Source: Phycisphaerae bacterium (lineage in GTDB: Bacteria; Planctomycetota; Phycisphaerae; UBA1845; UTPLA1). From it: a DNA stretch of 64,000 bases. Of the stretch, positions 45,819 through 50,009 are shown piece by piece. Under the pieces are notes generated by a model. The model made no database searches, was not told where the DNA came from, and saw only the letters and a program-made list of their open reading frames with translations. How positions within the stretch are numbered: position 1 is the stretch's first letter; each line of letters begins with the position of its first letter. The stretch spans positions 186,001 to 250,000 of the forward strand of contig JAKLKO010000001.1 of NCBI GenBank assembly GCA_023150615.1, in the 5' to 3' direction. Both the position numbers and the translations under genes were made by a program.

Positions 45819-46325
45819 ATGGCAGCCACGATCACGCTGCTGATCCTCGACGTCGACGGGGTCCTGACCGACGGCACGCTCCCCTTCGACGGGGACGGTC
45901 AGACGACCAAGACGTTTCACGTGCGCGACGGCGCGGCGCTTCGGGCCTGGCGAGACCAGGGCGGCCGGATCGCGCTGCTGAGCGCCCGCGCGTCTGACGC
46001 CGTCCGACGCAGAGCCGCCGAGCTGGGCATCGGCGCCGTCGTTCAGGGCGCGACCGACAAACTCGCGGCGTACGACGAGTTACGGCGTCAGTTTGACGTC
46101 GGCGACGAGGCCGTCTGTTACGTCGGCGATGACTGGGCCGACGCGAGCGTGATGAAGCGTTGCGGGCTGCCGATCGCCGTCGCAGACGCCGCGTCGGCGA
46201 TCAAGCGGATCGCGCAAGTCGTCACGCGGCGACCGGGTGGTCGCGGCGCGGTGGCCGACGCCGTCGAGTGTGCCCTGAGGCGGAACGGAACGTGGACGGC
46301 GGTGCTGCGCAGCGCCGGGCTGTAG
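45819..46325 (+). CDS. kdsC: 3-deoxy-manno-octulosonate-8-phosphate phosphatase
   Basis: Removes the phosphate from Kdo-8-phosphate, giving Kdo for the LPS inner core. The 168-residue HAD phosphatase has no cap domain: motif I LDVDGVLTDG, KTFHVRDG, motif II LLSARAS, motif III Lys in ATDKL and motif IV YVGDDWAD. This compact C0 form works as a tetramer. The ATG at 45819 matches the usual beginning. It is followed after nine bases by the LptC/LptA-like giant, the order found in E. coli (kdsC-lptC-lptA). Some relatives act on other sugar phosphates such as N-acylneuraminate. Confidence 0.85.
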   Translation: MAATITLLILDVDGVLTDGTLPFDGDGQTTKTFHVRDGAALRAWRDQGGRIALLSARASDAVRRRAAELGIGAVVQGATDKLAAYDELRRQFDVGDEAVCYVGDDWADASVMKRCGLPIAVADAASAIKRIAQVVTRRPGGRGAVADAVECALRRNGTWTAVLRSAGL

Positions 46326-46334
46326 CCCGACCGG

Positions 46335-49300
46335 ATGGACGAGATGAAGAAACGAATCCTGCTGGCCCTCGGAACCATCGTCCTCTGCGTCGGGGCGTTC
46401 CTCCTCGTCGCGGAGCGCGAAGTGCCTCCGCCGCAGGTCGATCAGAAAGCCGATGCCGCGCCGATCCAGGGTTTCATCTCCCGGCCGACGTCGCAGCCCG
46501 AGCGCGTCATTTCCGGAGGCGACCTGAAGCTCTCGCCCGGAGATCAGACTTTCGCCGTCATCTATGACCGCGTCACCGGCGAGCCGAAGTACCAGTTCCG
46601 CGCCGACCGCTGGGCGCCGATCAGCGAGACCGAATTCGAGCTCGTCCGCCCCGAGATCCGCATCCACATGCCCGGCGGCCAGATCACGCACATCCGCGCC
46701 GACGAGGGGCAGGTGGAACTGGCCCAGAGCGGGCGGCGCTCCGTCGAGCCGAAGCGCGGCTGGCTCCGCGGCGACGTCCGCGTGACCATCGACCGCACGA
46801 CGCGCAAGTGGCGCGCCGAGCACCCCGACGAGGCCGAGCTCGAGCAGCACCTCGATCAGACCATCACGATCTTCCTGACCGACGTCACCTTCGACCTCGA
46901 CCAGGCCCGCCTTCAATCCAACGGCCGCATCCGCGTGCAGAGCGTCGAGGCCGATATCGACGGCCGCGGCCTGTTGCTCGCGTGGAACCAGGTCGACAAC
47001 CGTATCGACTACCTGACGATCAAGGAAGGAAAGCAGATGGAATTGCGCCGTGGCGGACGCATGATCGAGTTCGCCATGCCCGGCTCGCCGCGCGAGTCGC
47101 GACCCGGATCGCGCGGGCCGCGGCCGGTTCGATCCGTCGAGATCGCCCGCGCTCGCCCCATGCAGCCGATGGCCGTCGGGACGACCGCGGCCGAGGCCGC
47201 CTCGCAGATCCGCGCCGTGGTCGCGCAGGCGAATCGACCAGCCGCCCTCGCGATGTCCGCAGCGGCCGCGCCCGACGCCGCTCGACGCGGCGCGGCCAGT
47301 GGCCCGGCGCGGGATGCCGATCTCGCTGCCCTCGCCGACGAAGTCGTCGCCGAAGCCCGCGGCGCTACGTATCGCGGCCGCGTGGGCGAGGAGGATCAAA
47401 CGAGCACGACGACGCAGCCGCGCGGCTCGCGCCCGAAGGTCGATACGTACAGCGCCGTGTTCACCGGCAACGTCGTCGTCGAGCAGCGACAGGGCCTGCG
47501 CCGCCCCGGTCGCATCACCTGCGAGAAGCTCGAACTCATCTTCGACTTCGGCAAGAAGCAGAAGCGCTCCAACCTCTTCCAGCCGCGTCCGATCGGCGAT
47601 GCACCGGCAACGCCCACGACCGGGAAGGCCGATGAGCCGATCGGTCCCGGTTCGCCCGAAGACACGACGCGACTCATCCTCACCTGGACCGGACCGCTTG
47701 AGATGCGTCCGCTGGTCATCCCGACCGATGAGAAGTCCGGGGAGCGATTCGACGCCATCGCCACCGGCCGGCGGGTCGAGGTCGACGACGAGCGCGGGCA
47801 CGCGGTCTGCCGCCAACTCGTCTACCGCAATGAGAATCAGCAGGTCTGGCTTTCGGCGGACGATCGCGAGCCGGTGGTCATCACGACGCGCGAGCGCGAG
47901 GCGTCGCCCGCCGAGGGCATGATCGAACGAGCGGTCGGAGCGCTTTCCGGCCGCGAGGTCTTCTTCGATCGATCGCGCGGCGTCGCTCGAATCGACGGCG
48001 CCGGTCGCATGACGCGCCATCCGCGCGGCGATGCGGCGCCCGACGAGCCGGCTCTGGCCGGCGCGGTCGGCGACATCCGCTGGACGCAGGGCGTGGAGAT
48101 CGAGATGCGCCAGGCCCGCACGGTCCGCCGCGATCCGGCGACCGGTGAGAAATCCATAAAGGTGCAGGACTACATCTCCCGCGCGTGGTTCCACGGCGAC
48201 GTCCGCGTCGGCCGTGGCGACGAGGAGATTCGCGGAACGGACGTGGCCGCGACGTTCGCCCCGCCGCCCGAGTCCGGGTCGGCGTCCGGACCACTGGCGC
48301 ACCTCGACGTGATCGGCAACGTCTTCCTGCGCAGCCGGACGGATACGATCCGGGGCGATCGACTCGAGGTGGACTTCGATCCGGCAATGCCGCGCCGCAA
48401 CGTGCCGAAATCGGCCATCGCGACGGGCAACGTCGTCGCGCAGCAGGGCCGGCGTCGCATCGCCGCCGACCGGATCGAGGTCGCCATGGCGTTGCTCGCG
48501 CCGACCGATCGGCCGGGCGCTGCGGCGCCGTCGAACAGGGCCTCTGCCGACCGCGCGCCGGTCGCAATCACCGAACTGCACGCGTTCCGCGGCGTGCGCG
48601 GATACGACCGCGAGCGCCGCTTCGCTGTCAACGCTGACGAACTGCACGCGCGCATCCCGGACGGACGGCAGATCGGGTCCGCCGTCGCGCTCGGGCGCAA
48701 GGACGGCAGCTTCGCCCGCGTGAAGTACGAGGACTACCGACTGGCCGGAAATCGCATCGAGATGGACCTGCGGGCGCAGACGGCCGACGTCAACGGCCCC
48801 GGCCGCGCGTATTTCACAAGCGATCGCGACTTCGGCGGCGGCGAACTGCGCGACGCCGAGACCGTTCGCGTCTCGTGGTCGAGCACGATGAAGGTCCGCG
48901 GCCGGGAGAACATCGCGGTTTTCGACGGCGCGGTCCGCGCTCGATCCAGCACGCACGAACTCCAGTGCCGCCAGCTTCAGGTGACGCTCGCCGAGTCCGC
49001 GCCGACCCGCCGAGCGCGGCCTGCGACGGCGCCGAAGCTCTTCTCGCTCGCGAGCCTCGGCCTGCCCTCCGATCCGTTCGTCGCTCCGCGCCTGAACGCC
49101 GCGCTGGCCGTCTTTCATGCGGCACGGAACTCCTGGAGTGCGCTGATGCCGGCGCTGACGCCGGTCCTGCCGCCCGGTCCGCGCGGCCGCGACACGCTGC
49201 TGGCCAGTCCCGACAGCCCGATGGTTCGCAAGCAGCCTGTTCGAATCGCTGCGATCGGCAAGGCGGTCGCGCTGCGCACCGTCCGTCACGCCCGCACGCA

Positions 49301-50009
49301 CCGGCTGCTGACCCGGACGCAGATCACCGCCGACCAGATCGACGTCGACCTCCGCCGCCAGGCGATGAACATCCCTGGCCGGGGAACGCTGCTCATCGAG
49401 GACTACCAGTTCGTCGCGGGCAAGTCGCGTCGCCGCGCACGGGCCGAGGGCGACCGCCTGTCGCTGCTCGGCGGCAGCGAGGGACCGAGCCAAACGCTCT
49501 TCCTGTGGGCCAACGGCATGAGCTACTTCGTGGATCAGGCGCTCGTGACGTTTGACCGGCAGGTCGTCATGCGCCACCTGTCGGGCCAAAACGTCGTGCT
49601 CCGTGACGACCTCGCGGCGGCAATGAACGTCGATCCGCGCGCCCTGCGCCTGCCGGCCGGGCGCCGCGCCGAGCTGACCTGCGACAACCTGCTGGCCCAG
49701 TTCGTCCGACAGGAGACTACACCGACCGAGTCGCTCGACCTTCGCGGCGGCGAGGTACAGCAACTCGTCGCGCGCGGCTCGGTGCATTTGCAGGACGGCT
49801 CGAAGTCGATCATGGGTGAAGAGCTGACGTTTTCACGCGAGACGGACCTCGTCACCGTCAAAGGTGCAACGACGTTCGAAGCGCGGATCTTCGACCAGGA
49901 CGAGCAATCGCAACGCTTCAACATGTGGCGCGGACCGTTGCTCGTCTGGGACCGCTCCACCGATCGCATCGAAGCGCCGCAGGCCCGCGTCCTATCCCGC
50001 GGCCAGTAG
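46335..50009 (+). CDS. Very long LptC/LptA-like (OstA) protein
   Basis: 1224 residues with one N-terminal membrane anchor (ILLALGTIVLCVGAFLLVA, 8-26) and a short proline-rich linker. Two thirds of the rest consist of repeated beta-strand modules of the OstA/LptA/LptC kind, where each strand pair carries a charged/hydrophobic alternation (YDRVTGEPKYQFRAD, DRLEVDFDP, LRGGEVQQLVARG). LptC and LptA form the periplasmic bridge that carries LPS from the inner to the outer membrane. This one is roughly five times longer than either, and follows kdsC directly. It may be a one-piece bridge; this is an inference. The middle contains Ala/Arg-rich linkers (about 250-340). Confidence 0.7.
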   Translation: MDEMKKRILLALGTIVLCVGAFLLVAEREVPPPQVDQKADAAPIQGFISRPTSQPERVISGGDLKLSPGDQTFAVIYDRVTGEPKYQFRADRWAPISETEFELVRPEIRIHMPGGQITHIRADEGQVELAQSGRRSVEPKRGWLRGDVRVTIDRTTRKWRAEHPDEAELEQHLDQTITIFLTDVTFDLDQARLQSNGRIRVQSVEADIDGRGLLLAWNQVDNRIDYLTIKEGKQMELRRGGRMIEFAMPGSPRESRPGSRGPRPVRSVEIARARPMQPMAVGTTAAEAASQIRAVVAQANRPAALAMSAAAAPDAARRGAASGPARDADLAALADEVVAEARGATYRGRVGEEDQTSTTTQPRGSRPKVDTYSAVFTGNVVVEQRQGLRRPGRITCEKLELIFDFGKKQKRSNLFQPRPIGDAPATPTTGKADEPIGPGSPEDTTRLILTWTGPLEMRPLVIPTDEKSGERFDAIATGRRVEVDDERGHAVCRQLVYRNENQQVWLSADDREPVVITTREREASPAEGMIERAVGALSGREVFFDRSRGVARIDGAGRMTRHPRGDAAPDEPALAGAVGDIRWTQGVEIEMRQARTVRRDPATGEKSIKVQDYISRAWFHGDVRVGRGDEEIRGTDVAATFAPPPESGSASGPLAHLDVIGNVFLRSRTDTIRGDRLEVDFDPAMPRRNVPKSAIATGNVVAQQGRRRIAADRIEVAMALLAPTDRPGAAAPSNRASADRAPVAITELHAFRGVRGYDRERRFAVNADELHARIPDGRQIGSAVALGRKDGSFARVKYEDYRLAGNRIEMDLRAQTADVNGPGRAYFTSDRDFGGGELRDAETVRVSWSSTMKVRGRENIAVFDGAVRARSSTHELQCRQLQVTLAESAPTRRARPATAPKLFSLASLGLPSDPFVAPRLNAALAVFHAARNSWSALMPALTPVLPPGPRGRDTLLASPDSPMVRKQPVRIAAIGKAVALRTVRHARTHRLLTRTQITADQIDVDLRRQAMNIPGRGTLLIEDYQFVAGKSRRRARAEGDRLSLLGGSEGPSQTLFLWANGMSYFVDQALVTFDRQVVMRHLSGQNVVLRDDLAAAMNVDPRALRLPAGRRAELTCDNLLAQFVRQETTPTESLDLRGGEVQQLVARGSVHLQDGSKSIMGEELTFSRETDLVTVKGATTFEARIFDQDEQSQRFNMWRGPLLVWDRSTDRIEAPQARVLSRGQ

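Follow-up and report, generated by a model that had tools for sequence, protein, structure and literature searches.

In Escherichia coli the gene order is kdsD-kdsC-lptC-lptA. The number of LptA copies in its bridge for lipopolysaccharide (LPS) is still open (PMC10094684). Pfam shows predicted fusion proteins with as many as four domains of the OstA superfamily, and a count of about four has been proposed as what a span of the periplasm needs (review of 2014, PMC3944529). In Planctomycetes, earlier work relied on LptD and BamA as outer-membrane markers, the only ones among the tested genes with enough specificity and conservation (PMC3422733), and a survey placed the phylum among those with largely reduced LPS transport (Lpt) and Tol-Pal systems (PMC8871954). 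Here we analysed a stretch of 64,000 nucleotides (the window) from Phycisphaerae bacterium (assembly GCA_023150615.1, contig JAKLKO010000001.1, positions 186,001 to 250,000), in which kdsC is followed by one open reading frame (ORF) of 1224 codons for a single-chain LptC/LptA-like protein, hereafter the bridge protein. We consider it highly probable that this protein is a covalently continuous trans-periplasmic LPS bridge replacing separate LptC and LptA. The support is computed, and it comprises the anchor, the fold, the module order, the strand alternation, the lptB/F/G/D genes, the genes for lipid A and 3-deoxy-manno-octulosonate (Kdo), the failure to detect a separate lptA or lptC, and the operon linkage.

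The bridge gene and its predicted fold

The bridge ORF (46335-50009, plus strand, as are all features of the locus given below) has no internal stops and begins 9 bases after the end of kdsC (45819-46325), both exactly where the first-pass annotation of the window had placed them. kdsC encodes a 3-deoxy-manno-octulosonate-8-phosphate phosphatase of 168 amino acids (aa; TIGR01670, E = 4.2e-44) and is the operon partner of the bridge gene, judging also from their linkage in homologous loci. The second in-frame ATG at 46344 (MKKRILLALG...) is the probable start, giving 1221 aa, because the N-termini of homologues match there. Full-length homologues share 37-54% identity with it inside its family and 18-28% in the remainder of the class, and this conservation indicates that the frame is a real gene. 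Its nearest named relative is L034, from a metagenome-assembled genome of a "Planctomycetota bacterium" (52% identity in the best segment), in keeping with a planctomycete origin. An antisense ORF of 1235 aa (46080-49787, minus strand) overlies most of the bridge gene; it was set aside as a gene and taken as a shadow frame of high-GC (guanine plus cytosine) DNA.

An AlphaFold2 model of residues 25-1224, calculated with an alignment of 48 sequences, had a mean predicted local distance difference test (pLDDT) of 79, a predicted template modelling score (pTM) of 0.64 and 56 strands, with two linkers, mostly of low confidence, at model residues 226-345 and 865-940. Behind a single membrane helix at its N-terminus the chain is predicted to be long and wholly of beta structure, and its beta modules were modelled with confidence. 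The N-terminal hydrophobic anchor (residues 8-26, 46356-46412, ILLALGTIVLCVGAFLLVA) resembles the inner-membrane helix of LptC, and such a segment is present in nearly all collected homologues. Together with this predicted single anchor, the N-terminal module contains an LptC-like beta-jellyroll (residues 55-241, 46497-47057), for which VIA-align, used for all Z values of this model, matched model residues 31-217 with LptC chains of LptBFGC complexes at Z of 9-10.7 (6mjp_C and 6mit_C, 10.7; 4b54, 9.8). Thereafter comes a variable linker rich in Ala and Pro (residues 250-369, 47082-47441; pLDDT mostly <60, low alignment occupancy). These about 120 variable, low-confidence residues between the LptC-like and LptA-like parts could be where one polypeptide is cut after export into an ordinary LptC and an LptA of several domains. 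We regard this as improbable, however: neither length nor sequence of the linker is conserved, no conserved cleavage site is evident, and relatives across the class keep the fusion though separate genes would be simpler.

In the continuous bridge that we favour, the linker leads into a first LptA/LptD-N-like jellyroll stretch (residues 391-690, 47505-48404), where model residues 367-666 matched the N-domain of LptD (7omm_A, Z 11.9) and model residues 548-693 matched LptA (6gd5, Z 9.2). A canonical OstA repeat motif (residues 692-717, 48408-48485) precedes the second stretch, which is LptA/LptH/LptD-N-like (residues 760-1020, 48612-49394; 2r1a_C, 2r19_A and 4uu4 at Z 12.4-12.7 and a root-mean-square deviation (rmsd) of about 3 Å); over model residues 680-1048 the matches to LptA, LptH and LptD-N had Z of 12-13. 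Inside this stretch lies a variable insertion or linker (residues 889-964, 48999-49226; pLDDT mostly <60, low occupancy) which the LptA matches cross. The C-terminal beta region (residues 965-1214, 49227-49976; strands at 941-1189 of the model) is presumably the end that faces LptD, and its equivalent in a homologue matches LptA.

That homologue is L049, which belongs to another family (27% identity) and was modelled from an alignment sharing most of its rows with the first. Its model has a membrane helix at 2-34, an N-terminal jellyroll matching LptC (Z 13-15, rmsd 2.6-2.8 Å), an LptD-N match at 313-614, an LptA match at 676-838 (Z 12.9, rmsd 2.5 Å) and a C-terminal part at 952-1072 which again matches LptA (Z 10.2, rmsd 3.0 Å). 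In both predicted models, the LptA-type jellyroll was matched with LptA, LptH and LptD-N at Z of 9-13 over 94-170 residues. Foldseek gave probabilities of 0.98-1.00 for LptA, LptH, LptC and the best LptD rows. Its top rows, teneurin, Tse5 and DDB1, were rejected as generic beta-repeat matches (TM-score <0.1, rmsd >30 Å). The predicted structure does contain jellyroll modules, an LptC-like one before LptA/LptD-N-like ones, and we estimate from the models a module order of anchor, LptC and then about three LptA-equivalents.

Pfam PF03968 (LptD_N, OstA) recognised residues 692-717 with E = 1.4e-13 (51.5 bits, gathering cut-off 20.4), the only repeat of the window protein that Pfam recognised, and 25 of 30 members of the bridge family had E <= 0.001 with the same profile. 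PF06835 (LptC) stayed sub-threshold at residues 80-128 (14.4 bits, cut-off 21), and neither TIGR04409 (LptC_YrbK; E = 3.4e-4, 20.2 bits, cut-off 38) nor TIGR03002 (LptA; E = 8e-9, 35.4 bits, cut-off 71.7) reached its equivalog level. LptA is a small soluble periplasmic protein, whereas the bridge has 1224 aa and an N-terminal hydrophobic segment like the LptC anchor. A phmmer search of the bridge against PDB sequences gave no meaningful match. The OstA character assigned to the long protein in the first-pass annotation is real by PF03968, with the LptC and LptA matches of NCBIfam below cut-off. By these curated cut-offs the bridge does not count as an equivalog of LptC or of LptA, and it is classified, on its sequence, as a diverged and fused member of the OstA/Lpt-jellyroll superfamily, although it would work as LptC and LptA do together.

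Could the protein be an AsmA/TamB/YhdP (Vps13-like) bridge which conducts phospholipids instead of LPS? Its length, N-terminal anchor and putative long beta groove would follow the same general design. However, the structural matches go to LptA, LptC and LptD, the matches of Pfam and NCBIfam to OstA, LptA and LptC, and the operon is that of kdsC and kdsD. Pfam scans listed LptD_N and LptC only, fold-search rows were dominated by Lpt chains, and no AsmA-like chain was among the structural-match rows shown, which leaves room for some other relationship. We find the phospholipid reading very hard to believe, and the least probable of those weighed here.

As a proxy for the groove of the favoured LPS bridge, the alignment-averaged hydropathy within predicted strands was analysed by its lag-2 minus lag-1 autocovariance, a measure that tolerates bulges. 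The alternation was 2.65, compared with -0.03 +/- 0.41 in shuffles; it was significant in the LptC-like module and in the next three of the five regions, and absent in loops. A simpler odd/even test over entire strands told little (p < 0.05 in 3 of 34), probably because bulges shift the register. A lipid groove needs such alternation, but since it is typical of any two-faced beta-sheet, it supports, without proving, a continuous hydrophobic groove along the bridge.

Operon context and the remaining Lpt genes

A single-sequence search found the bridge in 105 of 150 class genomes. With an N-domain profile from alignment A2, applied to a phylum-wide sample, it was found in all 12 other genomes of the class (ORFs of 936-1183 aa), including seven which the single-sequence search had missed; outside the class this profile gave three weaker matches only, in frames of 445-796 aa. 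The collected homologues measure about 740-1300 aa. Twenty loci, L034 and 19 of L040-L059, had the bridge re-found (in L055 phmmer did not re-find it), and in 19 of the 20 kdsC lies immediately upstream, with an overlap of 4 bases between the kdsC stop and the bridge start in five. L057 alone among these loci lacks a kdsC next to the bridge.

Of the genes lying before kdsC, ten were tested and five carried SIS and CBS domains as KdsD does; kdsD-kdsC-bridge mirrors in this way the kdsD-kdsC-lptC-lptA order of E. coli. The KdsC-LptC-LptA order proposed for the window is kept in the sense that kdsC is followed by one chain with the LptC-like jellyroll ahead of the LptA/LptD-N-like ones. In L059 (L059:8002-10407), an LptD homologue (E = 2e-121 to LptD of the window's genome) adjoins kdsC and the bridge, so that the three form a gene cluster for outer membrane and bridge.

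The genome of the window (completeness 99.6%) encodes LptB (329 bits, over cut-off), LptF and LptG in two genes adjacent to each other near lpxK, an LptD of 983 aa, and lpxC as well as lpxK. In searches of this genome for separate lptA and lptC, PF03968 matched only the bridge and LptD, PF06835 matched only the bridge and that weakly, and PF13100 matched nothing. Their absence is likely, not proven, because the profiles are weak for diverged members. The first-pass annotation had proposed that one long anchored protein stands in for both LptC and LptA, and the results agree with it: one chain holds both module types, lptB, lptF/G and lptD are present, and separate lptA and lptC were not detected within the limited sensitivity of the profiles. 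Neither of the two outcomes that the annotation had named as refuting its proposal was observed. Elsewhere, an LptF-like permease of 549 aa (L068:5288-6937) has its family match split around a long extra middle stretch, which suggests an enlarged periplasmic domain and may be a fit to the unusual bridge. The LpxC match of L090 sits in an open frame of 489 aa, longer than the family model, and could be an LpxC fusion.

The same profile limits bear on another explanation, in which the bridge is an additional OstA-fold protein with some other, LptD-like or accessory role while the actual LptA and LptC have diverged beyond detection. Over whole genomes PF03968 and PF06835 do miss most members of the bridge family, which is in its favour. 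However, the N-terminus matches LptC with its anchor included, and the linkage to kdsD-kdsC is that of the lptCA operon in E. coli; the protein is universal in the sampled class members, a separate LptD is present, and no other OstA-like gene was found. We give this explanation little credence, marginally less even than cleavage in the linker.

Proposed working of the bridge

In the LPS bridge that we favour, the N-terminal helix and the LptC-like jellyroll would rest on the inner-membrane extractor LptB2FG and take up LPS. The LptA-like jellyroll stretches of the same chain would form the hydrophobic groove, along which ATP-driven extraction would push successive LPS molecules, and at the outer membrane the C-terminal jellyroll would pass them to LptD, namely to its N-terminal OstA domain. 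The LptD N-domain would still form the last segment. On this inferred part of the reading, the protein would dock to LptF/G and LptD and carry LPS, and it might bridge the periplasm alone, with no LptA oligomers or other subunits, as the first-pass annotation had proposed.

Several results weigh against this reading. The window protein reaches neither the LptC nor the LptA equivalog cut-off, and divergent separate LptA and LptC could evade profiles which miss or barely reach the bridge family. With a pTM of just 0.64 and two disordered linkers, the model does not establish continuity from module to module. Furthermore, hydropathy in the window protein does not alternate significantly over the C-terminal region (p = 0.17).

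A stronger form of the reading is more tentative, and we would place it somewhat below an even chance: the bridge may be a complete span of fixed length from LptB2FG to LptD, with no extra LptA, acting as a covalent ruler of the distance between the membranes at sites of LPS export, and its chain length (about 445-1300 residues) may have been tuned across Planctomycetota by gain and loss of OstA modules.

Comparison with relatives and known systems

Other members of Planctomycetota have related single chains. Proteins of 652-669 aa occur in one family, among them those of L091, L092, L095 and L099 (652-667 aa), and L101 from another family has one of 796 aa; in profile comparisons with the bridge family the former gave E = 5e-15 and the latter E = 2e-28. 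The proteins of L095 and L101 resemble the bridge in joining LptC and OstA repeats behind an N-terminal hydrophobic segment in a single chain, with homology at the profile-profile level. They differ from it in being shorter and in passing the Pfam cut-offs for LptC and three copies of LptD_N. Short LptA-like frames of 169-232 aa occur in other planctomycetes as well. In the phylum sample, 34 of 41 LptC-bearing frames had at least 500 aa, a number that may include some LptD among the long frames. The LptC-OstA fusion looks old in the phylum, and variable in length, because shorter single-chain relatives and long LptC-bearing frames both occur.

The "new arrangement" claimed in the first-pass annotation was overstated, since predicted multi-OstA fusions had been noted before (PMC3944529) and other planctomycetes have LptC-OstA fusions too, of smaller size. 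The idea of a fusion is not wholly new; the novelty lies in a replacement of LptC and LptA throughout the class, in the length and in the operon context. In the open-licence literature we found no description of a class-wide LptC-LptA replacement or fusion in planctomycetes, which is a weak negative. On this evidence, the LptA and LptC parts were fused and diverged in this class rather than lost, and this may help to explain why the planctomycete Lpt system looks reduced in surveys with separate lptA and lptC profiles (PMC8871954).

Long anchored chains whose beta groove conducts lipid from one membrane to another are also known in AsmA-like proteins, TamB, YhdP and Vps13. The likeness to AsmA and Vps13 seen at first reading stands as an analogy of working; in family and fold the bridge matches Lpt proteins, and its operon context differs. 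It shares with the multi-OstA fusions (PMC3944529) the presence of several OstA/jellyroll units in one chain. However, it has in addition an LptC-type anchor domain, reaches up to 1300 aa, is class-wide and is linked to kdsC, and its sequence has diverged so far that Pfam sees a single repeat in the window protein.

A natural single chain fixes the number and order of its modules, and therefore bridge length, stoichiometry and transport along a continuous groove become directly testable; a chain of about 130 kDa may also image more easily than a dynamic oligomer. If the reading is true, one gene would fix an LPS bridge whose part count is unknown in E. coli. The Lpt system of E. coli differs in that separate lptA and lptC were not detected here and lptB lies outside the bridge operon. 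The two systems are alike in the kdsD-kdsC order, which relatives of the window protein keep, the N-terminal inner-membrane anchor with an LptC jellyroll, the LptA/LptD-N jellyrolls, and the presence of LptB2FG and LptD, while in the bridge protein LptC and several LptA-equivalents are covalently joined, with subunit number and order fixed.

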